From positions 1 to 24,267 of IMG/VR virus record IMGVR_UViG_3300004369_000143: 24,267 bases of DNA; one strand, written 5' to 3'. Origin of the DNA: a virus. Position numbers and translations under genes: made by a program. How positions within the stretch are numbered: position 1 is the first letter of the stretch; each line of letters begins with the position of its first letter. Positions 3,962-23,686 of the stretch are shown piece by piece. Below the pieces are notes generated by a model, which searched no databases, had not been told where the DNA came from, and saw only the letters and a list, made by a program, of their open reading frames with translations.

Positions 3962-4060
3962 CGTTTCCCCTTGCGTTGTGTGTTGTTCACTTGACTTGCC
4001 TCTATCCTCTCACATTCTTTGTAGGATTGCAACACCTTGGATGAATTTTTATCCCTAGTT

Positions 4061-4112: not shown

Positions 4113-4138
4113 AATTGATGCGCTGCGCCGTTAGGTTT

Positions 4139-4309: not shown

Positions 4310-4319
4310 AGGGCTAAAT

Positions 4320-4730: not shown

Positions 4731-4856
4731 AGTGCCTCCTTGCGGTTTGGCGTATTGCCACAGCACATCATGCGCCACGACAGGTGCGACTTCCTTTGCG
4801 GTCTTTCGCGCCACCCAACTGGCGATGGCCGATACGATCAGGGGGATAGGGATCAT
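4563..4856 (-). CDS. Longer form of the holin-like membrane protein, 97 aa
   Basis: ATG 4856 overlaps the previous stop by four bases (ATGA) but has no recognisable ribosome binding site of its own, so it would depend on translation of the preceding gene. It adds 42 residues (MIPIPLIVSAIASWVARKT, then a mostly charged linker to Met43) to the internal-start protein. The added part could make a third membrane contact, giving a long/short pair as in holin/antiholin systems with dual starts, or the locus may be an accidental fusion of two genes. The existence of both products is inferred from start-site quality. Confidence 0.5.
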   Translation of the reverse strand: MIPIPLIVSAIASWVARKTAKEVAPVVAHDVLWQYAKPQGGTMLKGKKTYIGIVVLLCSALVPQLGISESEVSTIVTALGTAAGGLMAIYGRIKANS

Positions 4857-5167
4857 TGCGCGACCGGCACTAGAAGTATTTTCTGCGCCAGCACCACAGT
4901 GCTAGGGAACAGCAAGCCGATCACGGCGAGCTCCACAATGTTCCGGTCAATCCAGTCCCACTTGTTCTTGTGCGCCTCGCGCTTGAACTTCTTGAACACG
5001 CGATACACCGCCAGCACCACCACCAGCCCCAGGGTCTTGATCGTGGCCCAGGCTTCATCAGAGAGCAGCACCGGCATGTCTGCCGCACCGTAGGCGTGCT
5101 GTGCCCAGGTGAGGCTGATGAGCAGCAGGACGGCCCCTGCAATCCACGCCAGGCGTTCGCGGGTCAT
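4853..5167 (-). CDS. Small membrane protein of the lysis cassette, holin candidate
   Basis: A 104-residue protein with three hydrophobic segments: residues 8-22 (WIAGAVLLLISLTWA), 44-60 (KTLGLVVVLAVYRVF) and 78-98 (VELAVIGLLFPSTVVLAQ), separated by a strongly basic loop (KKFKREAHKNK). The N-terminal segment may act as a signal anchor. ATG 5167 overlaps the endolysin stop by four bases and has GAGG just upstream. Three-span topology and position suit a class I holin; a role as a holin accessory or antiholin is the alternative. No spanin pair is seen next to it. Confidence 0.65.
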   Translation of the reverse strand: MTRERLAWIAGAVLLLISLTWAQHAYGAADMPVLLSDEAWATIKTLGLVVVLAVYRVFKKFKREAHKNKWDWIDRNIVELAVIGLLFPSTVVLAQKILLVPVAQ

Positions 5168-5562
5168 CCTTCCTCGATCAGCTCAAAGTGGCAGAGGTCA
5201 TCGAAATTGTTGTCCTTCACTTCCGTGTCACCATCCCAGTCCCCACCCCACCTGAGCCGGATGCCCATGGAGCGCGCCGTGGCCATCACCTGCCCAGCAA
5301 AATAGGTCTGCCGCTCGCGGTCTTTCCAGTCGATGGGGTAGCACTGCACGTCCACCGCGTTGGATGGCCACGTATTGTGCCTGCCATTCGGCCACTTCAC
5401 CTGAGACAGGCCCTCGGCAACCTTGGCGTTCTGCTCAATCTTGTTGCGGTGCCCGGTGATGATGCTGCAATCGAAGTCCTGCACCACGCGCTCAAAGATC
5501 GTGCGAAGACTGTGGTGGCAGGTTTTCAGGCGCTCTGCGCTGCTCTGTCCGAAGGTGGGCAT
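5164..5562 (-). CDS. Endolysin, M15-family peptidoglycan endopeptidase
   Basis: A 132-residue protein matching the VanY/L-alanyl-D-glutamate peptidase (M15) fold used by many phage endolysins, which cut peptide stems in peptidoglycan. Zinc ligands are visible as His62 and Asp71 (RHNTWPSNAVD) and His125 (DLCHFEL), with Asp122 a candidate catalytic base; ITGHR near 35-39 and the RWGGDWD segment at about 104-110 are family landmarks. The normal motif begins SKH; here Arg-His is found. No signal peptide, so export needs a holin. ATG 5562 with GGAG four bases upstream; overlaps the next gene by four bases. Confidence 0.88.
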   Translation of the reverse strand: MPTFGQSSAERLKTCHHSLRTIFERVVQDFDCSIITGHRNKIEQNAKVAEGLSQVKWPNGRHNTWPSNAVDVQCYPIDWKDRERQTYFAGQVMATARSMGIRLRWGGDWDGDTEVKDNNFDDLCHFELIEEG

Positions 5563-9116: not shown

Positions 9117-10820
9117 TTATTCCTCATCCGGCTGGAAGGTGGTGGGCTGGTAGCCTTCGCTGTAAGTGATCCCCGCGCTCGCCAGCACCGTATTGCGCTC
9201 CCGCTGAATTCCCGCCAGGATTTCGCGCAATTCGGCGCGCGCCCGGCCTTGGCGGAAGGCGGACAGCGGGTTTTCCCTTAACAGCATGAACTTTTCCTCG
9301 TTCTTGGTAAGGTTCGCGCCCAATTCCTGCAATTTCTTCATGCGGGCCTGAACCCGGTCAGTCATTTTCTGCGACAGCGCCCGGTCTTCAGAGCCCCAGG
9401 ACTCATAGCCGAATTCCTCACTCATCTGAATCAGGCGCGTCAGGTCTTCTTCGATCAGGTGTGCATTCTGGATGGTCGCAGTCGCCTTCTTTGCGTTGTA
9501 GGCATTGTTGGCCATGCCGATAGGCTGGCCGCTCGCATCGAAAACGGCCCGCTCCCGGCGATCTTTGCCCCAGGTTTCGGTATTGTTCGGATCAAACGCG
9601 GGCTGCGCCGCCCGCGTGGCTGCGGCCTCTACCACCGGCTGGAAAAACCTGACCCGTTCCTGCGCCTTCTTCACCTCTATCTGCGCAATTAAGTCCGCCT
9701 TCGCCTGCTTCTGCTCTGCGCTTTTCAGCCCAACCGTGAGAACGTTCAGTTCCGTCTGCGTCTCTTCCAGCATAGCCAGCCGGGTTGCTGCTTCTGCCTG
9801 CCGCTCATCAGCAAAGCGGGAGCGCATGTGCCCAAGCGTGGTCAGCTTGGACTGCGCTGCGTCACCCAATTGCGCATACTTCTCCTTTTGCAGCTCGATA
9901 TCCTCGTCAAAGGACTGCTGAAGAATTTGCAGCGCGTAGTTGGGGCCGCCCGTCAGCCCTGCACCATAGCCGCCAATCGCCGCCGCAAGCACAGCCAGAA
10001 TCTTGTTGCCCATCCCCCGGTCTGCCCATGGCTTCTTGAACTTGAACGCCTTGCGCTCTTCTTCGGCGGACTTGTATTCGCCCATGACATTTTCTTGGGC
10101 GCGGAGCCGCTCCTGTTGCTGCGCCTCCATCGTGACGCTCATCGCGCGCTGCTTAACTGCCTGCTGGCGGGTGCGCTCCGCAATGGCTTCGTAGGCCAAT
10201 TTCTGCTCATCCAGCCCGGTCTGCGCGGTCGCTGCCCAGTTGTCCAGCGCGATCATCACAGGGGCCGCCACGGCCTGCGCCACATTCACGCCGCCCATGG
10301 GGTCAGATTGCGGTGCGGCTGTGGGCTGCTGCGTGGCTTGCGGGGGCTGCACAAAGCGCGTGACCGCCTGCGTACCACCCCCTTGCCCAGCGCCAGGCCC
10401 AGGGGTGCCCGTGGGCGGCGTGCCTGCCGGTGCCGCGCCGGGGTCTGCCTTGTTCGGCGTTTCCTCGTCCACCCCGTACTGCTCCCGCAAGAAAGATGGA
10501 ATGCCTTGGCCTGACTGCCCACCGCTCAAAGGCGTGGCTTGCGGGGGCAGGAAGTCTTCCGGCTCCTTACCGCCCTGGGCGGGCTGAAAACGGGCCTTGG
10601 GTGGCGGTACAGGCGGCGGCGCCAAGGATCGCTTCAGCTTTGGCTTCGTTTCCGGCTTGAACCCGCTGGCCAGTACTCGTAAGCGCGGGAGTAGAGGGCG
10701 TCTGCGCCTGTTGTCCGGGTTCGCCGGTTTGCCCATCAGCTTGTTCAGCCCATCGATCTGGCCATCATCCAGGCCAAGCTCGCGGGCGCGGGCGATTTTC
10801 TGTTTATCCATGTAGGTCAT
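9117..10820 (-). CDS. Internal virion-type protein with Pro/Gly-rich linker, 567 aa
   Basis: After a helical N-terminus comes an Arg-rich stretch (residues 38-49), a proline/glycine/threonine-rich low-complexity linker (68-172), a long alpha-helical region, a hydrophobic glycine segment (271-292 NKILAVLAAAIGGYGAGLTGG), and charged helices to the end (LQKEKYAQLGD, RMKKLQELGANLTKNEEKF). The segment LAAAIGGYGAGLTGGPNYALQ, then DEDIELQKEKY, is typical of phage internal or ejection proteins. Start ATG 10820 lies two bases after the previous TAG, with GGAG nine bases upstream. It is probably packaged in the head. The Arg-rich stretch contains a 21-bp repeat, see findings. Confidence 0.6.
   Translation of the reverse strand: MTYMDKQKIARARELGLDDGQIDGLNKLMGKPANPDNRRRRPLLPRLRVLASGFKPETKPKLKRSLAPPPVPPPKARFQPAQGGKEPEDFLPPQATPLSGGQSGQGIPSFLREQYGVDEETPNKADPGAAPAGTPPTGTPGPGAGQGGGTQAVTRFVQPPQATQQPTAAPQSDPMGGVNVAQAVAAPVMIALDNWAATAQTGLDEQKLAYEAIAERTRQQAVKQRAMSVTMEAQQQERLRAQENVMGEYKSAEEERKAFKFKKPWADRGMGNKILAVLAAAIGGYGAGLTGGPNYALQILQQSFDEDIELQKEKYAQLGDAAQSKLTTLGHMRSRFADERQAEAATRLAMLEETQTELNVLTVGLKSAEQKQAKADLIAQIEVKKAQERVRFFQPVVEAAATRAAQPAFDPNNTETWGKDRRERAVFDASGQPIGMANNAYNAKKATATIQNAHLIEEDLTRLIQMSEEFGYESWGSEDRALSQKMTDRVQARMKKLQELGANLTKNEEKFMLLRENPLSAFRQGRARAELREILAGIQRERNTVLASAGITYSEGYQPTTFQPDEE
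10676..10696. repeat. 21-bp direct repeat, copy in the 567-aa gene
   Basis: The same 21 bases (core GCGGGAGTAGAG on the plus strand) are found at 22556-22576 in the portal gene, 11.9 kb away. The two copies are read in different frames (LLPRLR versus LYSRAYE), so shared protein function cannot explain the match. Confidence 0.6.
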
Positions 10821-10822
10821 GG

Positions 10823-12439
10823 CTAGTTGCTCCGCCCGATGCTCTGTTCAATCTGTTTGAGGCGCTTGTGAAGGTGCGCCTCTGCGGCCAGCAACACGCC
10901 GAAGCCCTTGCCGTAGTCCACCACCAGCCCGTCTGGCGTCTCGGTCACCAAGCGGCTGCCCGTCTCGGTCTTCAGGAGGTTCTGCGCCATCACGGACAAG
11001 TGTTTGCCGGGGCCGCGCAAGGGCTTGCCGGGCTCCTTGTACTCGTATTCCGCCGGGTGCAGTTCATCCAGCATGGCGTGCAACGCCGGGTCTGCCGCGG
11101 ACTCATCGATGTTGGTTTTCAACCGCTCATCAGAAAATGCCGCGGCGGTGCCCAGCCCCGCGCCCACCGCGCCGAACATGCCCGCCGTCTGCTGACCCCT
11201 CCGCGCCTGCTGCGCTGCATACCGGGCCGCCTCTGCCGCGCTGTCGCTGGCGTACTCAGTCTGGTAGGTCTGCGCATTGAGCCCCGAGGCCGCCATTTCG
11301 GCCTCCACGCGCATCCGCTCCGCCTCCTGTGCGGCCATGAACTGCGCCTGATCCACGTCAATGCCCATCTGCGTGTACTGCTGCACCAGCGCATCGCGGT
11401 TTTGCTGCTCCTGGACGCTCAGTTGCCCTTGGGCGATGTTTGATTGAACGTCCTGCCCACGCGCCGTCACGTCCGCTTGAATGGTCTGCCCGCGCTCGGT
11501 CACATCGGCGCCGCGCGCCTGATCCAGCGTGCCGCTCAGAAGCTGCTGCGCTGCCTGCTGCTCCTGCAGCGCCGCAATGCCACCAGCCTGCGCAATGCCC
11601 TGCTGCTGGGTTGCCGCGTTCTGCGCCACGATGCGCTGTGCCAGCGCCGGGTTGCCGCCCCGGTTGGTGACCGCTGCTGCGTTGGCTGCTGCGATGGACT
11701 GCTCCATCCCGGCAGTCATCTGTGCGCCGGACACCGTGGGGCCTTGGCCTGCGGCGCGGGCCTGCAACTGGTTCACCAGCGCGGCTTGGTCCTTCCGGAA
11801 CTGCCCCCTAGGCCGCCGGGCGCGGAAGGTCCGTTGCTGGGCAATGGTGGTCTTCCGGCGGCCCTGCAGATCATCGGTTTCTCCCGCAATCCGCTTATGC
11901 GCAGCCCTTAGCCGGGGGTCGATGAAGGCGCTTTGATTCACCTCGGGCGCTTTTACAATATAACCGGGGCCCGCGGCGGAGGTGGGCGGACGGTCGTTCG
12001 TATTTTCTCCGCCCTGCGGGAAATCACCTCCGTCGCTGTGCCCTTCCGTCCCGCTACTGGCGCCATCGTTCCCCTGTCCCTCGCCAAAACCGGGGCCCAT
12101 CCCGTCATCTCCGTAGCCTCCATCGAATTGCGCAAAGGCATCGGTAGCGCCTCCGTAGCCTCCATCAAAACCGCCTCCGTCGAACATCCCCAGCTTCTGT
12201 TGTAGTGTGGAAGCCCCGCCTTCGCGCTGCACCACGCTTTCAGGGATCACAAACTCGCCGGAATCCAGCAGACGAATTACGCGATCATTCCCTTGCCCTC
12301 GCCCTTGGTCTGCAGGGCCGTTCACCGCACCAGGCCGAATCAGCGCATTCAACGCCACCGGATTGCGCTTTGCTGCTTCCATGGCCGCAATCATCGCATC
12401 CAGCGCTTCTTTGTCTGCCGCACCTACACCTTGAGCCAT
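10823..12439 (-). CDS. Internal virion-type protein with S74-like C-terminal chaperone domain, 538 aa
   Basis: ATG 12439 shares its A with the previous stop (TAATG) and has AGAGG nearby. N-terminal residues 1-60 end with SGEFVIPESVV, a motif found in phage virion proteins. Residues 80-150 are Gly/Asp-rich repeats. A long Gln/Ala-rich helical region follows (200-410). The C-terminal 103 residues match the phage intramolecular chaperone (peptidase S74) motif: Ser436-Asp-Glu-Arg-Leu-Lys441 then a helix ending LHKRLKQIEQ, a coiled-coil-like tail. Ser436/Lys441 keep the spacing of the self-cleaving Ser/Lys pair known from K1F endosialidase. It lies between tail and ejection genes. Confidence 0.65.
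   Translation of the reverse strand: MAQGVGAADKEALDAMIAAMEAAKRNPVALNALIRPGAVNGPADQGRGQGNDRVIRLLDSGEFVIPESVVQREGGASTLQQKLGMFDGGGFDGGYGGATDAFAQFDGGYGDDGMGPGFGEGQGNDGASSGTEGHSDGGDFPQGGENTNDRPPTSAAGPGYIVKAPEVNQSAFIDPRLRAAHKRIAGETDDLQGRRKTTIAQQRTFRARRPRGQFRKDQAALVNQLQARAAGQGPTVSGAQMTAGMEQSIAAANAAAVTNRGGNPALAQRIVAQNAATQQQGIAQAGGIAALQEQQAAQQLLSGTLDQARGADVTERGQTIQADVTARGQDVQSNIAQGQLSVQEQQNRDALVQQYTQMGIDVDQAQFMAAQEAERMRVEAEMAASGLNAQTYQTEYASDSAAEAARYAAQQARRGQQTAGMFGAVGAGLGTAAAFSDERLKTNIDESAADPALHAMLDELHPAEYEYKEPGKPLRGPGKHLSVMAQNLLKTETGSRLVTETPDGLVVDYGKGFGVLLAAEAHLHKRLKQIEQSIGRSN
12109..12166. repeat. 16-bp direct repeat in the Gly/Asp-rich segment
   Basis: CTCCGTAGCCTCCATC occurs at 12109-12124 and 12151-12166. 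It encodes repeats of the type FDGGYGG within the flexible glycine-rich linker of the 538-residue protein, consistent with local duplication. Confidence 0.5.
12128..12146. repeat. 19-bp repeat, copy in the 538-aa gene
   Basis: The same 19 bases occur at 13378-13396, exactly 1250 bases away, in the adjacent tail gene. Both copies encode TDAFAQ in frame. Confidence 0.5.
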
Positions 12440-15400
12440 TACATCCTCTTTGTTGCGCGGACGCGGTTGGTGCCGCGTTTCACCCCTGCCAGCAGGGCCA
12501 AGCTCACCAGGTCGTAAGACTCCCCTGTGGTGTCTTCCATCACGTCTTCAAACCGGAAGCGCACGGACTGGCACTTCTGCCGCCCCAAGTGCACTTCAAA
12601 CTGATACAGGCCATCATCCACGCCGCCCCAGGGGCTCGATTCACCCCAGTAGGCGTCTGCGCCCCAATAGGTGCTATTCAGCAGCGCCCCGGTGTCGATC
12701 ACATGATCTTCTGGCCAACCGGGCTGGTAGTCATAGGCTACCTGCACGCGCAGCCGGTGCGCAGACCGGAAGTTCCCCAGCACCAGCGCCCGGTACACCC
12801 GCTGGAAGCCCTGAATGCCCGCCATCTTGATCCATGCCGTTTCGATCACCAGCGGGAACTTGCGGTTTTCGTCCAAGTACGCGCCGGACGTTTCCGTGTA
12901 GACCTTCCCGTCTGAGCGCAGATAGGCGTAGGTGCCCTGCCAGACCGTGGCGCTCAGGCCAATGTGGTTGTCCCAGGAGCTCCACTCGCCCACATGGTAG
13001 TCATAGGCCAGCGCCACGCCGCTGCTGGTGGTGAAGCGCACTTGGTTGGTGTCTTCCACCAGCACGCCGCTGGTCACGGTCAGGGCGTTGTAGGCTTCCA
13101 CGGGCGCGCCGATGTACGACACGCGCAGGCCGCGATCTAACAGATAGAAGCCCTTCGCCCCCTTGAAGATGAGCCCAAGGGGTGTTTCCACCACGCTGTG
13201 CTTGTCTGTGCAGCCCGCGTCTGTGGTCACCCGCTCAACTGGCGTGAAGGCACCGCCCAGGCCGGTTGCGTTCGGGCCATCGCCCGCCATGCCATAGATC
13301 TGTGAGCGTTTGAAGAAAATGTACTTGTCATCCAGTACACCCAGCGCAGTGATTGGCCCGCCGTCCGGGTTGACCGTTTGCGCAAAGGCATCGGTAAATT
13401 CCGTGCCCACACCATAGCGGACGGGCTTGGAGTACCAGAAGGTGCTGCCATCCTCCAGCCCGGCCAAGATCACGCGGCCCTTGCCGACGGCAATCAGCGA
13501 GGCCGCTGGTGGGGCGATGTTCTCCAGCACACCGCCCGTCGTATACTGAATCTCGTTGTCGCCAATGGCGCTGTCCGCCAGCGTGTCGGTAAACGTCACG
13601 GTGTCTGCTGTGGTGTCGTTGTAGGTAGGGCTGGTGCTGCTGGTCACCTTGTACGCCACTGTGCCGCTGGCCTTGGTGCGGTAAACCTCCAGCATCACTT
13701 CATCCCGCATGTCCTGCTTTGACGTGATGCGCAGCGTGGGGATAGTCACTTCCACGGATTGCGCAAAGCCGCCCCCGGTCAGCGTAACCTGCACGCCAAT
13801 GGAAGGCGCGCTGCGATGGATGCGGCCCCTATTGTCCGTCCAGGCGTAGACCGCGAAATACTGGTAGACGCCGTCGCTCATGGAGCCGCCAGAGGTCACG
13901 CCATTCAACGTCACGCCCTCGGGAAACAGGTGAAATCCCTGTTCCACCACGTTGAGCCCGTCGTACAGGGACACAAAGCCGCCCGTGACCAGCAGCGTTT
14001 CCGCCGCTTCCCGCGCCTGGAATTGCGCCGCGCTGGTGTAGTCCAGCGTGATCTCGGACACGCCGCGCAGGGAGTAGGTGACGTTCTGGGTCTGCGTCGT
14101 GGCGAAGCTGCGCAGGTCTTCGGAAATGAGCCGCGTCTTCACGCCCACGGCGGCCTTGAACACGCCGCTGGTGCTGGTCTCCAGCACGCGGGGCAACGTG
14201 GCTTTGCTGGTCACGCCACCGCCCACGCCGGGCAGCATCTTGCCAGAAATTGCGCCGGCCGCCGTCACCGCAAAGTAGGTGCCCTGCAATGTGGAGCCGT
14301 GTGCCACCATCACGTAACTCACATCGCCCGTGCGCCATGCCTTGCCCGCGAGCCCTACGCTGCGCAGCACGGTTGCCGCGGAGCCCGCTGTACCACCTGT
14401 GGTCAGCGTATTCTGCTTGACTAGGCGCAAGGTGGCCGATGCGTTGTAGACCTCGTAAAACACGCGCAGGGTGCCGCTGTCCTCAATCACCGCTGTGCAG
14501 TTCACCTGATTCGGACTGGTGCTCGAATCAATGGTGGTGGCCGCCAGGAAGCTGGTCAGGTCGTTCAGCAGAATGAAGCCGCGCAGCCCGTTGGTCGTGT
14601 TGTGGTACGTCACATAGACGTAGCCGCTGGACTGATCCACCACCACGCCCAGGCAGTTCTCCGCCTGTTCGGATACGCTCACGGTGGATGGGAGCCCCTC
14701 TACCGGGCTGCCCAGCGTTCCATCCGCTTGGAGGTAAGCCACCTTGATTGCGGGCGTGGCCGTGGCCCAGGCAATGATTGCGTTGGTGCCCGCCTCGTAC
14801 ACATCGAAATGCGAGTCTGTGCCATCCAGGTCGCTCACAATGCTGGTTTCTGAGCCCAGCGTGGTTGCGGTTGCGGGGTTGATGACGCGCGTGTAGATCG
14901 CGGTCGAGCCCGGCACGCTGTAGACCACCACCAGCTTGCCGTTGATCGCCAGGCAGCGGGGCCGCTCGCCGGATGCGTTGGCCTGGGTGTCCTGCAAGAG
15001 CGGGACGCCGCTGGCATCATCCACCGCCATGAGCCGCACGCCGCCCCGGCTGTCCTCCCATGCGTAGAGTGCCACGCCGCCGGCCACGGCCATGTCTGCA
15101 TGGGATTGGCTGGAATCGTTGCGCAGCACGTCTTTGCGCGTGACGGCCATGGGCTGCAGCGTGCCCTTGTCCACCCACTTGTTCACGGCGGGCGTATAGC
15201 TCATCAGTTCACCGCCGTCCTGGTCGAGTTGCCCCACCAGCTCATCACCATAGGCCCCCAGCCAGGAACCCCCGGAAATGGCCGTGGCTTCACCCACCAC
15301 ATCGCGGGACAGCGCGGTGTATCCGTTGCGCTTGCGGATGCGTCCAGGCGAACGGAAAGAGCCGTTGGTGAGCCCCGTGAGTTTGCCGGGAATCACCAGC

Positions 15401-15468
15401 TTTTCATCCGTTTTGGTGTCCAGGCCGCCCGTGAAGGGCACGTGGATCACTTGCTTGGCCAGGGGCAT
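12439..15468 (-). CDS. Large podovirus tail protein, nozzle/tail-tube B-like, 1009 aa
   Basis: Residues 1-50 carry the pattern VPFTGGLDTKTDEKLVIPG, then LTNGSFRSPGRIRKRNGY, characteristic of a common podovirus tail protein. The rest is beta-rich with short repeated strands (a beta-propeller-like layout is plausible), an FNIII-like segment near 500-650 (TSKQDMRDEVMLEVYRT), and a C-terminus with many Trp/Tyr (DYHVGEWSSWDNHIG, YWGADAYWGESSPWGG). Position between adaptor/fibre and internal proteins fits the tail nozzle position held by T7 gp12. ATG 15468 follows a 51-residue gene. I am sure it is a tail structural protein, less sure of the exact homology. Confidence 0.7.
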   Translation of the reverse strand: MPLAKQVIHVPFTGGLDTKTDEKLVIPGKLTGLTNGSFRSPGRIRKRNGYTALSRDVVGEATAISGGSWLGAYGDELVGQLDQDGGELMSYTPAVNKWVDKGTLQPMAVTRKDVLRNDSSQSHADMAVAGGVALYAWEDSRGGVRLMAVDDASGVPLLQDTQANASGERPRCLAINGKLVVVYSVPGSTAIYTRVINPATATTLGSETSIVSDLDGTDSHFDVYEAGTNAIIAWATATPAIKVAYLQADGTLGSPVEGLPSTVSVSEQAENCLGVVVDQSSGYVYVTYHNTTNGLRGFILLNDLTSFLAATTIDSSTSPNQVNCTAVIEDSGTLRVFYEVYNASATLRLVKQNTLTTGGTAGSAATVLRSVGLAGKAWRTGDVSYVMVAHGSTLQGTYFAVTAAGAISGKMLPGVGGGVTSKATLPRVLETSTSGVFKAAVGVKTRLISEDLRSFATTQTQNVTYSLRGVSEITLDYTSAAQFQAREAAETLLVTGGFVSLYDGLNVVEQGFHLFPEGVTLNGVTSGGSMSDGVYQYFAVYAWTDNRGRIHRSAPSIGVQVTLTGGGFAQSVEVTIPTLRITSKQDMRDEVMLEVYRTKASGTVAYKVTSSTSPTYNDTTADTVTFTDTLADSAIGDNEIQYTTGGVLENIAPPAASLIAVGKGRVILAGLEDGSTFWYSKPVRYGVGTEFTDAFAQTVNPDGGPITALGVLDDKYIFFKRSQIYGMAGDGPNATGLGGAFTPVERVTTDAGCTDKHSVVETPLGLIFKGAKGFYLLDRGLRVSYIGAPVEAYNALTVTSGVLVEDTNQVRFTTSSGVALAYDYHVGEWSSWDNHIGLSATVWQGTYAYLRSDGKVYTETSGAYLDENRKFPLVIETAWIKMAGIQGFQRVYRALVLGNFRSAHRLRVQVAYDYQPGWPEDHVIDTGALLNSTYWGADAYWGESSPWGGVDDGLYQFEVHLGRQKCQSVRFRFEDVMEDTTGESYDLVSLALLAGVKRGTNRVRATKRM
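13378..13396. repeat. 19-bp repeat, copy in the 1009-aa gene
   Basis: Identical to 12128-12146; encodes TDAFAQ in the 1009-residue tail protein. Flanking bases differ on both sides. Confidence 0.5.
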
Positions 15469-15477
15469 GTCTGCTCG

Positions 15478-15633
15478 CTACTCCCGCTCACTGGGTTCGT
15501 CTTCCACGCAGGCCGGGTCTGCCTGAATTTCCCGCAGTGCCTTCACGTAATCCCGGTTCTTGGGGTCTGGAGGAATGCCGCGCCCGTCTTCGGTGTTCAG
15601 TATTCCGCTCTCACCCCGCCTGTATTTCGCCAT
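15478..15633 (-). CDS. Small conserved-type phage protein, 51 aa
   Basis: This short ORF lies exactly between the stop of the fibre-like gene and the tail gene. ATG 15633 immediately precedes the stop codon of the upstream gene in sequence order, so translation probably continues by coupling. The product contains GRGIPPDPKNRDYVKALREI, matching small phage proteins with the pattern (I/S)PxDxxNRDYxxYL found next to tail fibre genes. It has an acidic tail (VEDEPSERE). Role in the tail or its assembly is unknown. Confidence 0.7.
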   Translation of the reverse strand: MAKYRRGESGILNTEDGRGIPPDPKNRDYVKALREIQADPACVEDEPSERE

Positions 15634-17376
15634 TTAGAGCCTCGCGTCGAAATAGACGATTGCCGAGCCCGCATCATCTGCGAGCTCGCAGCCCTCGCCA
15701 GCCGTCAGGACAGTGGCGTTCACGGTGATCTCCGCGGTGACCCCATTGGGTTGGGAACTGATCGTAGCGACGGCATTGACCGCCCGCGATGCCCCTGCGT
15801 AGCGAATGTCAAAATCCCCCGCCGAGGACACGCTGAAAGTGGGCGCCGCCCGCATCGTCACGGGCAGTTGGAAGTGGATATGGGCAACGCTTGTGTTTTG
15901 GGCATACCCATTCCCCATGCGGTTGTTGGAGCCGCCCCCCACGATCTTGCTGAAATACCGCTTGCACGCCTCCAATTCGCTCCCGTAGGCGCGGCGCACA
16001 AAGTTGGTGGCCACAGCGCCTTCCTCGATCTGCAACTCGGTCAGGTAGGCATTCTTGGTGGTGATTGCGCCGCAATCCAGTTCAACTTCCAATTCCAGCC
16101 CCCGCTCAGGGTTGGCACTGGACAGGTCAACATTTTCCAATTTGAGCGTTGTGGCCGTGGTGTCGTTGACCGAGGTGCCGCCATCGTTGGAAATGGCGCT
16201 GGTGGCGCTGAACACATCGGCCACGTCCGCGTCGCGCAGGTACAGGGTGGCGGTCTTCGCGCTGCCAATGTCGTGGTAGACCTTCACCTGAATCGAGGCG
16301 GACTTGCCCTTGAAGCGCGCCGCGTCCTTGGCCTCCATCCGGTAGACCCAGTGCAGCTTCCCGCCCGCGGCCAGCGTCACTCCTGAGAAATGACTGGCAT
16401 AGCCCGTGCTGCCCACTGAGGCGCTGGTTGCCTGGGTTAGCGTTCCTGCGCTGGCGGTCTGCGTGGTGTAGCCCCCGATCATGTCCACCCCGCCGTTCAC
16501 CACCTCTGTGACCGCATCAGAGGAAGCGCCCAGCGTATAGGCGGGGTGCTGCGCCACGATGCAGCCGCCGTTAATGACCGCGTTCGGGTTGCCCAGGTGG
16601 TCTGCGAACACGCCGCCGTCCTTCAGTAGGACGCTATCCAGCGTGACCCCCGCGCCGCTGGTTTTTTCAATCACATCGTCCGTCTGCACGGTCGTACCAG
16701 CCACGACACCGCCTGTCGTGGTCAGGCTGGTGACCGTGGGCGTGGCCGTGCTCGCCATCACGCCGCCCGTGGTCAGCGTCATCAACTCCGTGACGCTGGA
16801 CGGCAGGGCGCTGGGCAGTTCCAGGGACACATTCGCCGCTAGGCTGGCCTTGCTGGACAACTTCACGTAATTGGCGCTGCTGGCGTTCTCATAGACAAAG
16901 AGGCTTCCGCCCACAATGTCACCGGTGATGCCGCTGCTTTGCGTAAAGCTGTAGGCTTTGGTGCTGCTGGAGTAGGTCACCGCCGCCGTGCTGGTGGCGT
17001 AGTCTCCGCCAATTCCGCCGATGCTGCTGGCGTTCAGCGCGCCGCTGGCCGTGAGCTGCACATCGTTGCCGCTCGCGTCCCGGTAGTGCAGTTCGCCGCT
17101 CACCACTTGCAGGCTGTTCAGGTAGTTCGCCCCGGTCAGAATGGCGGACTGGCTGGTCATCACCGCGGCGCCCAGCTCATAAAGCCGGTTGTCGTTCATC
17201 TCCAGCGCGGCGTTGATGTTCAGTCCCGCCGGGGTCACGCGCGCGCCATTGCCGCTGGAGTGATCGTGCCCATCGATCACCGTCAGCGCCGCATTGACCT
17301 GCGTTGCGTAGTCCGGCCCTGCAGTGCCACCCACGCCAGGGGTGGGCAGCGTCAGGGTCATCAGCGGAGTTGTCAT
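15634..17376 (-). CDS. Tail fibre or receptor-binding-type structural protein, 580 aa
   Basis: The N-terminal domain reads TLPTPGVGGTAGPDYATQVN, then IDGHDHSSGNGARVTPAGLN (HDHS at 37-40), a pattern found at the start of many podovirus tail fibre-type proteins. Residues 70-300 are a Ser/Thr/Gly-rich beta region with fibre-like repeats. A C-terminal region (about 448-478, LQIEEGAVATNFVRRAYGS, then ELEACKRYFSK) is the end of a carbohydrate-binding-type module common in phage fibres, followed by a last beta domain of about 100 residues. ATG 17376 with GAGG six bases upstream. Probably contacts the host surface. Confidence 0.75.
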   Translation of the reverse strand: MTTPLMTLTLPTPGVGGTAGPDYATQVNAALTVIDGHDHSSGNGARVTPAGLNINAALEMNDNRLYELGAAVMTSQSAILTGANYLNSLQVVSGELHYRDASGNDVQLTASGALNASSIGGIGGDYATSTAAVTYSSSTKAYSFTQSSGITGDIVGGSLFVYENASSANYVKLSSKASLAANVSLELPSALPSSVTELMTLTTGGVMASTATPTVTSLTTTGGVVAGTTVQTDDVIEKTSGAGVTLDSVLLKDGGVFADHLGNPNAVINGGCIVAQHPAYTLGASSDAVTEVVNGGVDMIGGYTTQTASAGTLTQATSASVGSTGYASHFSGVTLAAGGKLHWVYRMEAKDAARFKGKSASIQVKVYHDIGSAKTATLYLRDADVADVFSATSAISNDGGTSVNDTTATTLKLENVDLSSANPERGLELEVELDCGAITTKNAYLTELQIEEGAVATNFVRRAYGSELEACKRYFSKIVGGGSNNRMGNGYAQNTSVAHIHFQLPVTMRAAPTFSVSSAGDFDIRYAGASRAVNAVATISSQPNGVTAEITVNATVLTAGEGCELADDAGSAIVYFDARL

Positions 17377-17399
17377 CTGTCGCCTCGCTCAGGGGTGCG

Positions 17400-17564
17400 C
17401 TAGACCACCAGCCCGCACAGTTCGCGCAGGCGGTTGATGCGCTGGGAGATCGGCGCCGGAATGCCGCCATGGTCGCGGCCCATCTCTTCCACCGTCTCCG
17501 TGATTTTGGCCAGCAATTCCTGTTCTGCTGAAGGTGCCTTTGCTTGCTGTTCCGCTTTCGCCAT
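17400..17564 (-). CDS. Small phage protein, 54 aa
   Basis: A short gene filling the space between the 105-residue gene and the fibre-like gene. ATG 17564 has GAGG seven bases upstream. The sequence MAKAEQQAKAPSAEQELLAK, then ITETVEEMGRDHGGIPAPIS, ends with a basic helix (QRINRLRELCGLVV). It is mostly helical and may be a small structural or assembly factor. No family recognised, but position and ribosome binding site support a real gene. Confidence 0.65.
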   Translation of the reverse strand: MAKAEQQAKAPSAEQELLAKITETVEEMGRDHGGIPAPISQRINRLRELCGLVV

Positions 17565-17579
17565 TGCCTTGCCTCATCG

Positions 17580-17897
17580 CTAGAAGACCCAAACGCTCAC
17601 GGTGCAGTCCGTGTTCGCGCGAAGGGTCAGGGTTTTTGAGGGTGCCGGGCTGTCTGCCTGCGCATCCCACACAATGGCCTCGGTGTCGTTCCGCACCACC
17701 AGCCAGCCCCGCAATGGGCTGTCCAGGCCGTGATTCACCTCCTTGTCCTCATAGGCGGTGATCTCCACGCCTTCAATGAGCCGTCCGCCTGAAATCGCCG
17801 GGGCCGTGGCCTCGTTTAGCGCCTGCTGCACGTTGTCTTGCAGGCGCGCCAGCACATCATCCACACCCAGCAGCCGGGCCAGGGTGACGCGCAGCAT
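17580..17897 (-). CDS. Small conserved-type virion protein, 105 aa
   Basis: The start ATG 17897 shares its A with the adaptor stop (TGATG). After an N-terminal helix the protein is beta-rich: GRLIEGVEITAYEDKEVNHG, then PLRGWLVVRNDTEAIVWDAQ, then LTLRANTDCTVSVWVF. This 'pVpHGLxRxPxGWxVV ... LxLxAxxxxTVxxxVF' pattern is seen in many small podovirus proteins near the tail genes. It could be a tail or head-tail completion protein. Family pattern is convincing, biochemical role unknown. Confidence 0.7.
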   Translation of the reverse strand: MLRVTLARLLGVDDVLARLQDNVQQALNEATAPAISGGRLIEGVEITAYEDKEVNHGLDSPLRGWLVVRNDTEAIVWDAQADSPAPSKTLTLRANTDCTVSVWVF

Positions 17898-18817
17898 CAG
17901 GCCCAGCCCCCGCCCATGCGCTCATTGGCGTGAATGTCCGTCACCACTTCCGGCTCTCCGATATCGCGCTCTTCCGCCATCTCTTCCAGCCGCATCCGCA
18001 GGCGGCCAAGCTGGCGTTCCTGCGCAGATGTGTCGCTCTCTTCCTTCGCTAGGCACTTGATGGCGGACCACACCACTGCGTACTCTTCCCAGCCGTTGAT
18101 CCCGTCATAGGTGCTTTGCAGGGTGTGCGTGCCCGTGCCGGTGTCCGTGATGTCTACGGCGTCGCCATCCTCGCTAGTGGCCAGTTGCACGGTGTCTGCG
18201 TCGGTTGCAATCACGTAGTAGTCTGTGCCGGCAGAAAGCCCCGCGGGCAGCGTGGTGGTGCTACTCAACCGGACTGTGGCGTTGCCGCGCAGCCCGTGGC
18301 CCGCAATGGTGATGGTGTCCGCGTCTGCATCCACGTCACTGGTGGCAATCGCGTTCCACAGTTGCAGCACAGGGCTGGTTGGCACGTACCAGAAGCGGCC
18401 GGAATAGCTGCCCCCCGCCTTCGGCGTGAAGCGCACCTTGCCCTGCTCTAGCCGGTACTCCATGTCCACAAACGTGCCGACCTGCGCGCCGCCGGGATAC
18501 CAGGTGCCCCGGTTGCGGCGCCGCCAGCCGTACTTGTTCACCGGCAGGTAGTTGGTGCCGCTCAGCGCCAGATCCACGCCGCGCAGCTTGTAGAAGTCGC
18601 TGGGCAGCGCCACGGTCTCCGTGGATCCGCTCAGCGTGAAGGTGGATTGCTGGAGGAAGTAGTCCTCGCCATAGGCCCCCACCAGCAAATCCCACAATTC
18701 CGTGAGCCCATCGTTGACGTAGCCGCGCACCTCTGCGTCCGTCACAAAGGCGCTAGCCTCCATGTCTGCGGCGCGGCGGGCGCGGGTTGCCAGATCGCTC
18801 ACGGTCACTAGGCGCAT
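17897..18817 (-). CDS. Head-tail adaptor (tail tubular A-like) with inserted beta domain, 306 aa
   Basis: Residues 1-150 and 236-306 form the usual podovirus adaptor: a helical N-terminus (LATRARRAADMEASAFVTDA, then VRGYVNDGLTELWDLL), a central beta part (YFLQQSTFTLSGSTETVALP, KVRFTPKAGGSYSGRFWYVP) and C-terminal helices (WEEYAVVWSAIKCLAKEESD). Inserted at about 151-235 is a beta domain (DTITIAGHGLRGNATVRLSS, PAGLSAGTDYYVIATDADTV, GTGTHTL) found as a mobile module in many phage virion proteins. The protein should join the portal to the tail. Its stop overlaps the next start by one base. Adaptor assignment is good; insertion boundaries are approximate. Confidence 0.75.
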   Translation of the reverse strand: MRLVTVSDLATRARRAADMEASAFVTDAEVRGYVNDGLTELWDLLVGAYGEDYFLQQSTFTLSGSTETVALPSDFYKLRGVDLALSGTNYLPVNKYGWRRRNRGTWYPGGAQVGTFVDMEYRLEQGKVRFTPKAGGSYSGRFWYVPTSPVLQLWNAIATSDVDADADTITIAGHGLRGNATVRLSSTTTLPAGLSAGTDYYVIATDADTVQLATSEDGDAVDITDTGTGTHTLQSTYDGINGWEEYAVVWSAIKCLAKEESDTSAQERQLGRLRMRLEEMAEERDIGEPEVVTDIHANERMGGGWA

Positions 18818-18819
18818 GG

Positions 18820-19035
18820 CTAGTCGGCCCCGATGGCGCGAATAAAGCCCTTGAGCAAGCGGCTGAATTCACGCGGTTTGTCATCGCGCAGGGCGTCCAT
18901 CATGTCCTGCGCGATGACGGATTCATCGTCCAGCGGGCCATCCTCTTCTTCTTCGGAGCGCTCTTTGCTCTTCGCGCCGGAATCCTTGGCCCCCTTGACG
19001 ATCAGGTCTGCCAGCCCATGGGTGTCTGCGGCCAT
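18820..19035 (-). CDS. Small acidic phage protein, 71 aa
   Basis: ATG 19035 starts two bases after the preceding TAG (TAGCCATG). The 71-residue protein is strongly acidic (SKERSEEEEDGPLDDESV) and ends with a helix DDKPREFSRLLKGFIRAIG. Small acidic proteins ending with a similar Asp/Ala-rich helix are common between capsid and adaptor genes in podoviruses. An upstream GTG at 19068 would add 11 residues but overlaps the previous gene. Possible assembly chaperone; unproven. Confidence 0.65.
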   Translation of the reverse strand: MAADTHGLADLIVKGAKDSGAKSKERSEEEEDGPLDDESVIAQDMMDALRDDKPREFSRLLKGFIRAIGAD

Positions 19036-19037
19036 GG

Positions 19038-19436
19038 CTAGTTCGCCACGCTGGAGTTCTTGAGCCACAGCTCGAAATGGATGCGGTTGTTGGCGTGGCT
19101 TGCAATGTCCACCGCCGCAATCGCCCCAGCCCCATCGTAGTCACCCGCGCGGATGATGATGGTCTTGGCGCTGCTCACGTCATGAGCTCCAAACTGCAGC
19201 ACGGCGTCTGTCAGCGCGTTCATCTGCAGGCTGACCTGGGCGCTCACCAACTCGGTGTACTTGTCCGTCAGCGTGATAGTGAAAACTCCGGTGGACGTGT
19301 GCACAACCGTGAAGCCCTGCCCGGTGTTGTCCGCGTTGTCGATGGTGCCAGTGCCGTTGGGGCGGAAACTGCCCGCCAACTTCACCATGCCGCGCTGCAA
19401 TGCCCCCTGGACGGGGTGGAAGTATCGATTGGCCAT
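19038..19436 (-). CDS. Virion-associated hypothetical protein downstream of the capsid gene, 132 aa
   Basis: ATG 19436 is chosen over GTG 19445 because AGAGGTGG lies at suitable distance. The 132 residues begin MANRYFHPVQGALQRGMVKL and continue beta-rich (FTVVHTSTGVFTITLTDKYT, IIIRAGDYDGAGAIAAVD). It is not a classic decoration protein but the pattern 'short N-terminus then alternating beta strands with Thr/Val' matches small structural proteins often next to podovirus capsid genes. Probable minor head or decoration protein. Confidence 0.55.
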   Translation of the reverse strand: MANRYFHPVQGALQRGMVKLAGSFRPNGTGTIDNADNTGQGFTVVHTSTGVFTITLTDKYTELVSAQVSLQMNALTDAVLQFGAHDVSSAKTIIIRAGDYDGAGAIAAVDIASHANNRIHFELWLKNSSVAN

Positions 19437-19474
19437 GTGGGCCACCTCTCAAAGAAGCAGGTTGAAGAAGGCCT

Positions 19475-19495
19475 GCCGGGCAGCCATCACCCGGC
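19475..19495. repeat. GC-rich hairpin after the capsid gene
   Basis: GCCGGG and CCCGGC form a 6-bp stem with a 9-base loop in the 74-base gap after the capsid stop. On the minus strand it is followed by TTCTT-type pyrimidines rather than a clean T-run. It could attenuate transcription past the highly expressed capsid gene, or stabilise the capsid message. Confidence 0.35.
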
Positions 19496-19510
19496 GGGCG
19501 CATCAGGCCG

Positions 19511-20722
19511 CTAGGCCAACTGGATGTTGGCGTTGTAGCCGGGGGCCTTGCAGTAGAGCTGGCCGTAGTAGCCGTGCCGCACTTCCACGCTGTCTGCCGT
19601 GGCGTTGCGCAGGCTGCTGAGGCCGTCCGTGTCCAGCGTTTGCGGGCACGGGCCCAGGCTGTGCAGCTTCCAGGTGTCCATCTGGAGCATGAAAGCGCGG
19701 TTCACCGGGCAGTAACGGTCGCTCATGACCTTCATCTCCCCGTGACCGGCTTGCAGCGTCAGGGCGCGGAAGCCAATGCCTGCTTCCATCTCCACGTCCA
19801 CATACTGCTTCTTGCTGCCCAGCGCGTTGATGAGATCCCCGAAGTTGGTGGGGTTCATGTACACGAAGTCCGGCGATCCACCGTGACGGGTGAGCCGGAT
19901 GGCGGCCTTGACCAGCGTTTCCTCAATCGGATCGGCGGAGCCGTCATAGCGCATGCCACCCAACCGCACGGTGTCGCTGGTGCGATCCACCCCGAAGAAG
20001 GTGGTCGCGCTCGGCGCAGTGCTCGGAATCCAGGCCGCCAAGCCTTTGATCTTCGCCGCGTGGTCACCCTGGACAAAGATGTAGTCACCGGTGGTCACGT
20101 CCGTGGTGAAGGGGCTTTCCTGCAGGTCATCCTCCACGGTAATCACGCCGGTATCCCGGTCAATGTCCGTGATGTTGGTGTTCCCCGCCTTGACAGACCC
20201 TGTGCCGTCCGCCGTGGAAAACACGATCTCCATGCCCACGTCGAATTTTACCACGTCTTCAATGTTCTCGAGCGTGAAGGACGTGGTAGGCGCCGTTTCC
20301 GACACCGTGCCCAGCGAGCCAGAGCCGGTGCCATACAGGTCGGCGGCCAGTTGGTTGCTGATCGCCCGGATGGCATTGTCATTCTCGGTCTTGATGGCCC
20401 GCGCCAGGGCGCCCTTGTCGTTCGCAGAAGCCAGAATGGTCTCGTTGTCGATGTCGGCCAGCACGTAATCCCGCGCGCGGGTCACGTTGAACTTCACACC
20501 CAGCGTCGGGCGCTTGTTGGTCACGGCCGTGCTGAAGGTGGCGCTGCGTCCTTGCGGGTTGGCGTATTCCACCGGCACAACGAGGTTATCCCCGTAGAAG
20601 TCCGTGGACTTGGAGAGGGCCGCCAGCAGCGGGCGATCCTTGTAGGTGAGATTCGCAACCGTCGAAACGGGGTAGAGTTCCTTCAACGCATAGTCGAAGG
20701 TGGTCAGATCCAATGCACTCAT
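19511..20722 (-). CDS. Major capsid protein, 403 aa
   Basis: I start at ATG 20722 (MSALDLTTFDYALKELYP) because GAGG lies eight bases upstream; the longer reading adds 14 residues that come from a hairpin. The protein has the HK97-fold pattern of podovirus capsids: N-arm and E-loop region (DNLVVPVEYANPQGRSATFS), spine helix (ALARAIKTENDNAIRAISNQ), then an inserted beta region (about 142-220; FDVGMEIVF, DIDRDTGVITVEDDLQ, TTGDYIFVQGD) and a P/A-domain (FVYMNPTNFGDLINALGSKK, HGEMKVMSDRYCPVNRAFM). It assembles on the scaffold encoded upstream. The gene lies between hairpins, fitting high expression. Confidence 0.9.
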   Translation of the reverse strand: MSALDLTTFDYALKELYPVSTVANLTYKDRPLLAALSKSTDFYGDNLVVPVEYANPQGRSATFSTAVTNKRPTLGVKFNVTRARDYVLADIDNETILASANDKGALARAIKTENDNAIRAISNQLAADLYGTGSGSLGTVSETAPTTSFTLENIEDVVKFDVGMEIVFSTADGTGSVKAGNTNITDIDRDTGVITVEDDLQESPFTTDVTTGDYIFVQGDHAAKIKGLAAWIPSTAPSATTFFGVDRTSDTVRLGGMRYDGSADPIEETLVKAAIRLTRHGGSPDFVYMNPTNFGDLINALGSKKQYVDVEMEAGIGFRALTLQAGHGEMKVMSDRYCPVNRAFMLQMDTWKLHSLGPCPQTLDTDGLSSLRNATADSVEVRHGYYGQLYCKAPGYNANIQLA

Positions 20723-20733
20723 AACGGCAACCT

Positions 20734-20761
20734 CGCAAAAGAGCGTGTAGAGCCTTTTGCG
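20734..20761. promoter_or_regulatory. Perfect hairpin just upstream of the capsid ribosome binding site
   Basis: CGCAAAAG and CTTTTGCG form an 8-bp perfect stem with a 12-base loop in the 87-base scaffold-capsid gap; the minus-strand stem ends immediately before the capsid ribosome binding site (GAGG). It is likely an RNA stability or processing element that raises capsid expression relative to scaffold, or a site that adjusts start access. Confidence 0.5.
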
Positions 20762-20809
20762 CAAGCTGAGCCGCCCGAACGTCCAGGAGCAGCGCGGTCT
20801 ATGGCGTGA

Positions 20810-21754
20810 TTATGCCGCGGCGCCGCCCCCTTCTAGGGCTTTGACCGCCCTTGCCAGGCGCTCATCATCCGTCATGGCAGCAGCCTTGTGCACCACCACG
20901 GATTCTTGCGCGTTGTTCAGGGTTCTCGGCTCTTGTGCTCTGCCGCCTGCTTGCATCTTTTGCTTTGTCGCGCCCTTTTCTTCACCCGTGGCGCCCGCGG
21001 GCTGAGCGGCCTTCGCGGCCTGCTCTTCCAGAAACTTCTTGACCTTGCTCGTGCCCAGCAGTTTTTCCGTGGCCTGCTGATACAGGCCCTTTTCGGTCAG
21101 GGCACAGGCTTCAGCGTAGTCCAGCACCTTGCCGTGCTCCTTGTGCCAGAGCACCATCACCTCGTTGACCAATTCCGTGGCGCCATCCCAGTTATTCAGC
21201 AGCTCATACGCCTCAGCATCCTTGCTGATCGTCTGGCCAATGGAGTCCATGTGCTGCTGCACGTTGCGCTCGTACTGCTTCTGCGCTTCTTCCTTCTCCG
21301 CATCGGCCCGGGCCTGCTTGTCTGCCGCGATCTGAGCTTCCAGCGCGGCCAGCTTGTCTTCCGTGGTGGGGTCTTTCTTGCCGTTCAGCCCCAAGTCCAC
21401 CACCTTGCGGAAGTCCAGCCCTGCTTCTTCCAGCACGGCCAGCGGGTCTTCCTTCAGCCGATCCAGCACGCCCTTCTGACCGTCCAGCCCCTTCTCGCGG
21501 TCTTCCAGCGCCTTCTCGCGTTTCCGTATGACGTTTTCCCGGCTCATGACCTGCGCCAGGGTCAGACCAACGCGCTCCTTCTTGGGCGGCTGGCCATCGG
21601 GCTGGCCTTGCGTGCCCTGCTCGCCTTCCTGGGCTGTCTTCTGCCCAGGTGCGGGAGAGCCGCCCCCCTGGGCGCCTGCCCCGTCCGCAGGCGCGCCAGG
21701 GGTTGCCCCAGTCTCGGGAGAGTCCGGTGCAGCGGTTTGCGTCTGGACTTCCAT
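20810..21754 (-). CDS. Capsid scaffolding protein, 314 aa
   Basis: The protein lies directly between portal and capsid genes, the standard scaffold position. Residues 1-55 are low-complexity Ala/Gly/Pro/Gln (disordered), followed by a strongly charged helical middle (SRENVIRKREKALEDREKGL, KLAALEAQIAADKQARADAEK, QYERNVQQHM) likely forming coiled coils, and a basic C-terminal helix after a disordered KGATKQKMQAGGRAQ stretch. Such charged helices suit the scaffold-capsid contacts known in P22 and T7. ATG 21754 with GGGAG five bases upstream. No protease motif seen, so it is not a fused scaffold protease. Confidence 0.82.
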   Translation of the reverse strand: MEVQTQTAAPDSPETGATPGAPADGAGAQGGGSPAPGQKTAQEGEQGTQGQPDGQPPKKERVGLTLAQVMSRENVIRKREKALEDREKGLDGQKGVLDRLKEDPLAVLEEAGLDFRKVVDLGLNGKKDPTTEDKLAALEAQIAADKQARADAEKEEAQKQYERNVQQHMDSIGQTISKDAEAYELLNNWDGATELVNEVMVLWHKEHGKVLDYAEACALTEKGLYQQATEKLLGTSKVKKFLEEQAAKAAQPAGATGEEKGATKQKMQAGGRAQEPRTLNNAQESVVVHKAAAMTDDERLARAVKALEGGGAAA

Positions 21755-21766
21755 GGCGTCTCCCAG

Positions 21767-23686
21767 TTAATTCATGACGGGTGGGGGAGCCCCGCCGCCG
21801 CCGGGCACATTCGGGAGCAGCGGGCTTGTGGGCGCGGCTTCCGGGCTGGCCATCGGAGCGGGGGGTTGCGGCGCGGCGCCTTGCATCGGGGCCACAGCCT
21901 GCGGGGGGTTCAAGATGTTCTGTGCGTCCAGCAGCCAATCGCGGAAAGATTCCTGCACGCTCTCTGGCGCGCCGTCGATGCGGGCGCGGAGCAGGGCGTT
22001 GCGCATCATCTTCACGCTCAGTTCCAGGTTCATGTGCGGGTCGGGCGAGATGTACTCACCGCCGTCTAAGAATCGCTCCATCACCTGCTGAATCAGCTCA
22101 ATAGCGGCGAGCTGCTGGTTGGCTGCGCCTTCCAGGTCTGGGAAGTCCAGGAGCTGCAAGCCGGTGTCGCGGTCGATCAGCCCGGCCTGCATCATTTCCT
22201 GGATCGTTTCCAAGCGGCCGGCGGGTGTGTTGGGCAGTTGCGAGACTGGGAAGATCTGCATCTCGTACTGGTCTTTTTCCAGATCCACGTCCTGCCAGCG
22301 GATGCGCTCCATGAAGTTCTTGCCGCGGTAGGTGGCCACAAAGCCGTCTTTGTCGCCTTCCTCGCGCAATTTTTCATCAATCTCCTTGGCCAGCACGATG
22401 AGCTCCCGCGCCGTGTCCAGGAAGAAATTCTCATACGCCTGCCCGAGCATCATGAATCGCTCGGTTTCAATGTCGTTGTACTCGCGCAGCGCCTTGCCGC
22501 TGTTGAGCCCGGCGGGCTTCTGGCTGGTGGCGCTCAGTTGGCTGATGCCCGCGATCTCGTAAGCGCGGGAGTAGAGCCGGTCAAGCTGCTCAACCACGTC
22601 GCGAGGCGCGCTGTTGTGCGTCACCACCTGCGGCGGCGTGTTTCCGGTGTAGTTAATGATCGCGCCGATCTGGTTGCGCAGATGCGAAGGCGCCACCTTG
22701 CTGCCGGTCTTCACATAGACCCATGGCACGCCCAGGCGCCGCTGGGATTCGCTGATGGACAGCGCCAGCCGGTTGATCTCCACTTGCGTGCCGGTCAGCA
22801 GCTCCGCCAGGCCTTGCCCCGAGTAGCCCAGCAGTGGCGATTGCCAGTGAAAGCGGATGAACGGGAAGGTCTCGCGCTCCCATTCTTCATCCACCAGCGT
22901 GCAGTTCTTGAGGCTGATGGTGTGGCGCCCATCGCCCGCATCTGGCCCGCTGGGCAGATGCCACGCCTCGATCACGCACAGTTGCGTGGTTGGCCGGTGG
23001 CTGGCGTCATCGTCGCGGTCTTCTTCGCAGGCAGCGATCTCGGTCTTGTATTCCGGGAACTGCTCAATCAGCACCTCGCGGGAGACATTCTTCACCCGGT
23101 AGAGGTTGCCCGGCGCGCCGTACTTGGATTCCGCGTCATCCCATTTCAGTTCTTCCGGGAAGACGTACTCCAGCTTGATCTCGTGGCCGCGCCGGTAGGG
23201 GTGCAGGAAGCCTGTGCCGAAGACACCGCCGCAGATGAACACCATCGGCGCCAGGTCGTACATATCGCAGCCGTAGAAGATGCCCTGCGTGAACTGGCTG
23301 AGTTTCTTGGCGCGGGCCTGCTGGCTGAAATCGCCGCGGGTGGTGAGAAACAGCGGGCGGGGGCGGTTCTTGGTGATCTTGCTGGCCAGCGTGTCGATGC
23401 ACGAGCGGATCACGTTCAGGCTGAAGCGATCCTTGGCGCCGCCGCCGGTTTCCCGGGCGTAGGACTGAATGCCCAGCCCGGCCACGTTCTTGCCTGCGTA
23501 GAGGCGTAGGTGGCGCTTGTTCAACTCGGTGCGGTAGCGCTGCTCCGTGTTCAGATCGGAGACTTTGGCCCAGACGGAAACGTGCGGCCCGGCCACGGTG
23601 CTGCCCTTGTCGGCAGTCCACCACGCAGTCTCGGGCGCGCCCTTGCGAGCGGCGTAGTCATAGGAGGGGCTGGGGTAGCTCGCCAT
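21767..23686 (-). CDS. Portal (head-tail connector) protein, 639 aa
   Basis: I start at ATG 23686 (MASYPSPSYDY); an in-frame TTG four codons upstream has no better ribosome binding site. The protein has the length and features of podovirus portals: NVIRSCIDTLASKITKNRPR near 90-110, LKWDDAESKYGAPGNLYRVK, the wing/stem part FHWQSPLLGYSGQGLAELLTG, IAGISQLSATSQKPAGLNSG, and a C-terminal helical region ending in a Pro/Ala-rich tail (MQGAAPQPPAPMASPEAAPT). It forms the ring through which DNA enters and leaves the head. It follows the terminase and a small gene and precedes the scaffold, as expected. Confidence 0.9.
   Translation of the reverse strand: MASYPSPSYDYAARKGAPETAWWTADKGSTVAGPHVSVWAKVSDLNTEQRYRTELNKRHLRLYAGKNVAGLGIQSYARETGGGAKDRFSLNVIRSCIDTLASKITKNRPRPLFLTTRGDFSQQARAKKLSQFTQGIFYGCDMYDLAPMVFICGGVFGTGFLHPYRRGHEIKLEYVFPEELKWDDAESKYGAPGNLYRVKNVSREVLIEQFPEYKTEIAACEEDRDDDASHRPTTQLCVIEAWHLPSGPDAGDGRHTISLKNCTLVDEEWERETFPFIRFHWQSPLLGYSGQGLAELLTGTQVEINRLALSISESQRRLGVPWVYVKTGSKVAPSHLRNQIGAIINYTGNTPPQVVTHNSAPRDVVEQLDRLYSRAYEIAGISQLSATSQKPAGLNSGKALREYNDIETERFMMLGQAYENFFLDTARELIVLAKEIDEKLREEGDKDGFVATYRGKNFMERIRWQDVDLEKDQYEMQIFPVSQLPNTPAGRLETIQEMMQAGLIDRDTGLQLLDFPDLEGAANQQLAAIELIQQVMERFLDGGEYISPDPHMNLELSVKMMRNALLRARIDGAPESVQESFRDWLLDAQNILNPPQAVAPMQGAAPQPPAPMASPEAAPTSPLLPNVPGGGGAPPPVMN
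22556..22576. repeat. 21-bp direct repeat, copy in the portal gene
   Basis: Identical to 10676-10696 over 21 bases and then diverges on both sides. Here it encodes LYSRAYE of the portal protein. A 10-bp core (GCGGGAGTAG) also occurs on the opposite strand at 15478-15487, just before the 1009-residue tail gene. Confidence 0.6.

Follow-up and report, generated by a model that had tools for sequence, protein, structure and literature searches.

A 21-bp repeat in two phage genes probably belongs to a mosaic of short templated copies

The viral record IMGVR_UViG_3300004369_000143 (positions 1 to 24,267; a single metagenome contig of 24,267 nt, referred to here as the window) contains the 21-mer CTCGTAAGCGCGGGAGTAGAG twice, at 10676-10696 and 22556-22576, on the same strand and with 21/21 identical positions. 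The first copy lies in a gene for a 567-residue protein of the virion region (g567) and the second in the portal gene, which raises the question of how two genes came to share it. A sequence-only reading of this DNA had offered a choice between a DNA site (used in packaging, recombination, or regulator binding) and a recent copy event. Its remark that the reading frames differ is correct; the 5' end of the 21-mer is codon position 2 in g567 and codon position 1 in the portal gene. The analysis described here favors a copy event in a richer form, a cluster of copied pieces: the repeat probably belongs, with other short templated copies, to a mosaic, and is a mutation scar rather than a DNA signal (estimated probability, about 0.72).

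An all-against-all comparison of the window on both strands provided the main evidence. Its three longest exact matches, an inverted one of 27 bp, a direct one of 21 bp, and an inverted one of 20 bp, share one end zone, 10575-10696, which occupies 122 bp of g567. The reported 21-bp pair ranks second by length, and the 27- and 20-bp matches, both inverted and both ending in the same 122 bp, had been overlooked. With a shorter direct repeat, four pieces are distinguished, and their partners lie at two sites in the portal gene, at one in the gene for a 910-residue protein, and at one nearby in g567 itself. The features are as follows.

9117-10820, minus strand: g567, the 567-residue virion-region gene and putative recipient; an open reading frame whose distant homologues align over the later, helical part only.
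10532-10696, minus strand: patchwork region; the four pieces make up 88/165 bases (one base mismatched), corresponding to residues about 42-97 of g567.
10676-10696, minus strand: piece A, the repeat first reported; 21 bp copied in direct orientation from portal 22556-22576.
22556-22576, minus strand: source of A; portal residues 375-381 (LYSRAYE), native, in register with substitutions in the relative L003.
10609-10638, minus strand: piece B, copied in inverted orientation from portal 23420-23449; 30 bp with 1 mismatch, of which 27 bp are exact (10612-10638 with 23420-23446).
23420-23449, minus strand: source of B; portal residues 84-93, native, with an in-register alignment to L003.
10575-10594, minus strand: piece C, an exact inverted copy, 20 bp long, of a stretch of the 910-residue gene (6424-6443).
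6424-6443, minus strand: presumed source of C; residues 891-897 of the 910-residue gene, with the donor role presumed only.
10532-10548, minus strand: piece D, 17 bp; repeated directly and in frame at 10331-10347 of g567, where either copy could be the donor.

The flanks of every pair were compared, and in each case the match ends abruptly with no similarity outside it. Each piece has exactly one partner, and the pieces are unlike one another. A repeat family or mobile element was rejected because of the single partners, and a CRISPR-like array because no repeat unit was seen by eye between the pieces. A shared protein motif was also discarded; the sequence-only reading had already set protein homology aside on the ground of the differing frames, and the inversion of two further pairs speaks against it. 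That two pieces are inverted is compatible with template switching or strand capture. A 12-bp match that begins directly after piece A (10697 with 12652) was treated as chance. The 10-bp core that had been noted in reverse at 15478-15487 is indeed present, but matches of such sizes are ordinary (an 11-bp piece is found at 8973, for example), and it is given no weight.

The next consideration is whether GC-rich, codon-biased sequence could generate these matches by chance and composition. When codon order was shuffled within genes and intergenic DNA base by base (n=2000), matches of at least 21 bp at a distance of >300 bp averaged 0.0015 per window, which bears out the earlier judgment that such a match is improbable by chance; a looser shuffle that kept intergenic DNA unshuffled (300 runs) gave 0.007. 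Matches of at least 20 bp at >300 bp averaged 0.006 per window in the 2000 shuffles. The shuffle and survey counts cover pairs >300 bp apart, so piece D falls outside them, and the reported match counts were made without a complexity filter, as a filter hid the 20-bp pair of the window. Some other GC-rich phage sequences contain isolated matches of comparable length (for example, L111 and L137 with 20 bp and L139 with 21 bp), and these lend the chance explanation some support. It is nevertheless extremely unlikely here, given that three matches fall in 122 bp while 0/2000 shuffles had even two matches of at least 20 bp inside one 150-bp stretch. Clustering beyond chance and exact short intragenomic matches, two of the features by which a templated patch is recognized, are both found at this locus; an ancestral source with a derived recipient would be the third.

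Other phage sequences were surveyed for comparison. Of 80 other phage loci, none shorter than 7,000 bases (1,271,193 bases in all), 72 lacked any match of at least 20 bp at >300 bp, seven had isolated ones, and one (L114) had a hub of two, located in a repetitive stretch. These loci are not all independent (L106 and L107, for example, are near-identical), and L141 was excluded as a duplicate of L135. A second survey of 16 whole or nearly whole contigs from relatives (586,769 bases) partly overlapped the 80 loci. There, G009 showed a hub of two matches; pairs of at least 17 bp numbered 283 in G006, 444 in G038, and 27 in G009, and were provisionally put down to repeat families. Direct repeats of up to 119 bp in G006 (L172-L174) and up to 145 bp in G038 (L175-L177) were also recorded, the longest listed being near the contig ends.

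The direction of copying can be addressed through L003, the only close relative among the portal homologues in IMG/VR, which are abundant at about 40-45% identity. Its portal protein is 85% identical to that of the window (80.5% at the DNA level), and 39% of third codon positions differ. Both portal stretches are found in L003, in register and with substitutions; residues 375-381 read LYSRAYE in the window and LYNRAYE in L003, and L375 and A379 are invariant in a four-sequence portal alignment. By these comparisons the two portal sites are ancestral. The g567 copies equal the portal allele of the window itself exactly, save for one mismatch in the extended piece B. Since the portal sequence is in register in L003 and the g567 copies carry the window's own allele, sequence comparison identifies the portal gene as the probable donor and g567 as the probable recipient of pieces A and B, and places the copying after the split from L003, in a search that finds near-identical copies only.

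The same data bear on the idea that the 21-mer, or complementary pieces of late mRNA, acts as a packaging, recombination, regulator, or antisense element. The inverted pairs do make 27 and 20 nt of the g567 transcript complementary to the transcripts of the portal and 910-residue genes. A DNA site should recur in the genome or its relatives, but only the two copies exist; counting the motif in the window with up to 3 mismatches gave no third, and the exact 21-mer was found in 0 stretches of the viral_contigs collection and 0 of genome_contigs (records very near the window may be left out). The portal sites are ordinary coding sequence that has diverged in L003, and the neighboring pieces are dissimilar, differ in orientation, and have one partner apiece. 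A functional site is therefore very unlikely, and the part of the sequence-only reading that proposed one is not borne out.

The g567 protein gave no match in Pfam or PHROG, and no kin were found in the phages collection or, with two queries, in viral_contigs. Distant homologues at E up to 1 were obtained in 12/37 and 5/11 phage records, and none of the listed matches starts before query residue 119. An AlphaFold2 model built from the single sequence (weak, with a mean pLDDT of 54.6) predicts two short N-terminal helices (residues 6-28), a stretch without secondary structure and with pLDDT < 50 (residues 38-108), and long helices from residue 180. The patched residues, about 42-97, are proline-rich and lie outside the parts matched by homologues; because they fall within the predicted disordered stretch, the patch would sit in a permissive linker. 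Such a linker may tolerate almost any in-frame sequence, and it would have either grown or been replaced.

The events could then be reconstructed as follows. In the phage lineage, after the split from L003, the disordered linker of g567 would have received at least three pieces of 20-30 bp, with the portal gene (two sites 0.86 kb apart, in opposite orientations) and the 910-residue gene as donors. A DNA end or gap in the linker may have been filled by short stretches, two of which were inverted, taken from the numerous phage genomes present in the cell. The route was probably a polymerase or strand-annealing error, in which either the template was switched repeatedly or short single-stranded pieces of phage DNA were captured where there was a gap or break. 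Because the frame stayed open and the new residues were tolerated, the scar would have persisted. The alternative to a single event or burst is that separate short duplications arrived successively and were tolerated or selected. The nearby 17-bp in-frame repeat, together with a 19-bp in-frame match in the adjacent gene for a 538-residue protein, suggests that several low-complexity linkers took copies and makes successive arrival conceivable. The tight clustering and near-perfect identity of the three main pieces suggest similar, recent ages, although ages are inseparable here, and on balance the piecemeal account is considered unlikely.

Several observations weigh against a templated patch. 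L003 lacks the g567 region, and the junctions are seen in one assembled contig only. No relative with an alignable N-terminal linker was found in the homology searches with the 567-, 910-, and 1009-residue proteins, so the unpatched ancestor is unseen and the insertion is a probable one. When templates were sought for the two spacers (10595-10608 and 10639-10675), neither the window nor the first 5.95 kb of L003 gave a match better than random segments do, and the partners that were identified account for only about half of the patch; the spacers may be old linker or may come from a part of the genome missing in the contig. A BLAST search with 10500-10820 in the phages and plasmids collections returned weak short matches only. 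Finally, hubs of three or more 20-bp matches were present in 2/16 of the relatives' contigs (G006 and G038, both distant relatives); these are taken to be a different phenomenon, involving long direct-repeat families. The dependence on one contig also gives room for an artefact of amplification, library construction, or assembly, in which chimeric molecules or a misjoined graph made the patch and the true gene has another linker. No other contig scanned contains the 21-mer, no second assembly was seen, and strand-displacement reactions are described in part of PMC9484634 as yielding chimeras with inverted pieces. In the same portion of that source, however, most of these chimeras are inverted repeats whose two alignments overlap extensively, in contrast to the several 20-30 bp pieces from distant sites, interspersed with unique spacers, found here. 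The frame of 567 codons is also open through the patch, with a start two bases past the preceding gene, though this is a weak argument. An artefact is judged improbable, and a templated patch in the phage genome is retained as the preferred explanation.

Templated mutations in phage T4 were reportedly described by Schultz, Carver and Drake in 2006, as cited in a review. That account attributes them to sequential strand switching, with copying from elsewhere in the same phage genome by strand switch and return, and in this respect they resemble the g567 patch (PMC3016281). As presented there, T4 copies from an imperfect repeat elsewhere (PMC3016281), whereas here several distant templates in both orientations converge on one spot. 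A switch of the T4 type is guided by an imperfect repeat at both sites, and in the present sequence of the window no similarity extends beyond the pieces; for this reason the patch is not filed as a T4-type templated mutation. Short-patch double illegitimate recombination (SPDIR) was reportedly described by Harms in 2016 in bacterial chromosomes (Acinetobacter baylyi). SPDIR proper involves microhomology at the joints with the replaced ancestral sequence. Short heterologous segments, including intragenomic ones, are said to replace sequence and create clustered polymorphisms, much as envisaged for g567, though the setting there is bacterial. The bacterial process is named in part of PMC7192050. 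At yeast double-strand breaks, templated insertions, many of 5-34 bp and some with several fragments, are reported in part of PMC11724301; like the pieces in g567 they are very short, may be inverted or come from distant loci, and are sometimes multiple. They differ in depending on eukaryotic enzymes, and complex events account for just 5-7% of insertions in the mutants named in that part of the source (PMC11724301). Of these processes, the T4 mutations and SPDIR come closest to the g567 patch. A title-level literature search gave no description of multi-source templated patches in a tailed phage, which holds for the titles retrieved only.

If the interpretation is correct, a double-stranded DNA phage has preserved here the fossil trace of templated patching from several sources, with donors known to the base. 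It would illustrate a route by which new coding sequence arises in phage linkers without import of foreign DNA, and one directly testable in phages whose replication and annealing proteins are known. A caution follows as well, in that two phage genes may share an identical 20-bp repeat that is not a binding site.

A further possible piece is present in the gene adjacent to g567.

12128-12146, minus strand: possible further piece; 19 bp of the 538-residue gene, coding for TDAFAQ, that match 13378-13396 in the gene for a 1009-residue protein in direct orientation and in frame.

This match is the fourth longest in the window. Its copy in the 538-residue gene lies inside a repetitive Gly-rich stretch (FDGGYGG..TDAFAQ..FDGGYG), and its partner belongs to a segment that is aligned in the 12 homologous loci listed. 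It is possibly another copied piece; as it is in frame and on the same strand, it could also be chance. Two isolated, direct 18-bp exact matches between genes were also observed (447-464 with 20934-20951, and 9020-9037 with 18118-18135); matches of at least 17 bp average only about 0.16 per shuffled window. In G001, a distant, GC-rich relative (L157 and L158), inverted exact matches of 17-18 bp at 3929-3945 and 4064-4081, with partners at 20748 and 24849, are less than 150 bp apart in the g567 homologue (open reading frame 3536-5329), a pairing that 0/500 block shuffles reproduced. L137 and L139, too, have hubs of two matches of at least 17 bp, and for that reason G001 is regarded as a lead only. 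The hub in the window, the 19-bp in-frame piece, and the two inverted matches in G001 are the basis for a broader and unlikely proposal, that phages of the SU10-like group recurrently build and rebuild the disordered linkers of internal virion proteins by inserting segments of 17-30 bp from late genes of the same phage, whatever the orientation or frame. Such a recurrent intragenomic patch mutator would perhaps leave the scar of host-inflicted breaks healed by degraded phage DNA.

The window as a whole represents part of a phage genome that encodes an SU10-type major capsid protein and adaptor, a portal, a tail-fibre-like protein, and an endolysin. The gene at the right end, which runs off the contig, is taken for the terminase from its position before the portal gene and its kin in L003. 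No tRNA was found in the window, no kin of the 910- and 1009-residue proteins in viral_contigs, and no kin of the portal protein in the phages collection or, by portal alignment, in genome_contigs. The 538-residue protein (10823-12439) carries a Peptidase_S74 (endosialidase chaperone) domain near its end, despite its structural-gene surroundings. The SU10-type adaptor protein (17897-18817) contains an extra domain (residues 157-234, approximately), which has matches to portions of PHROG families for tail fibres and baseplates.

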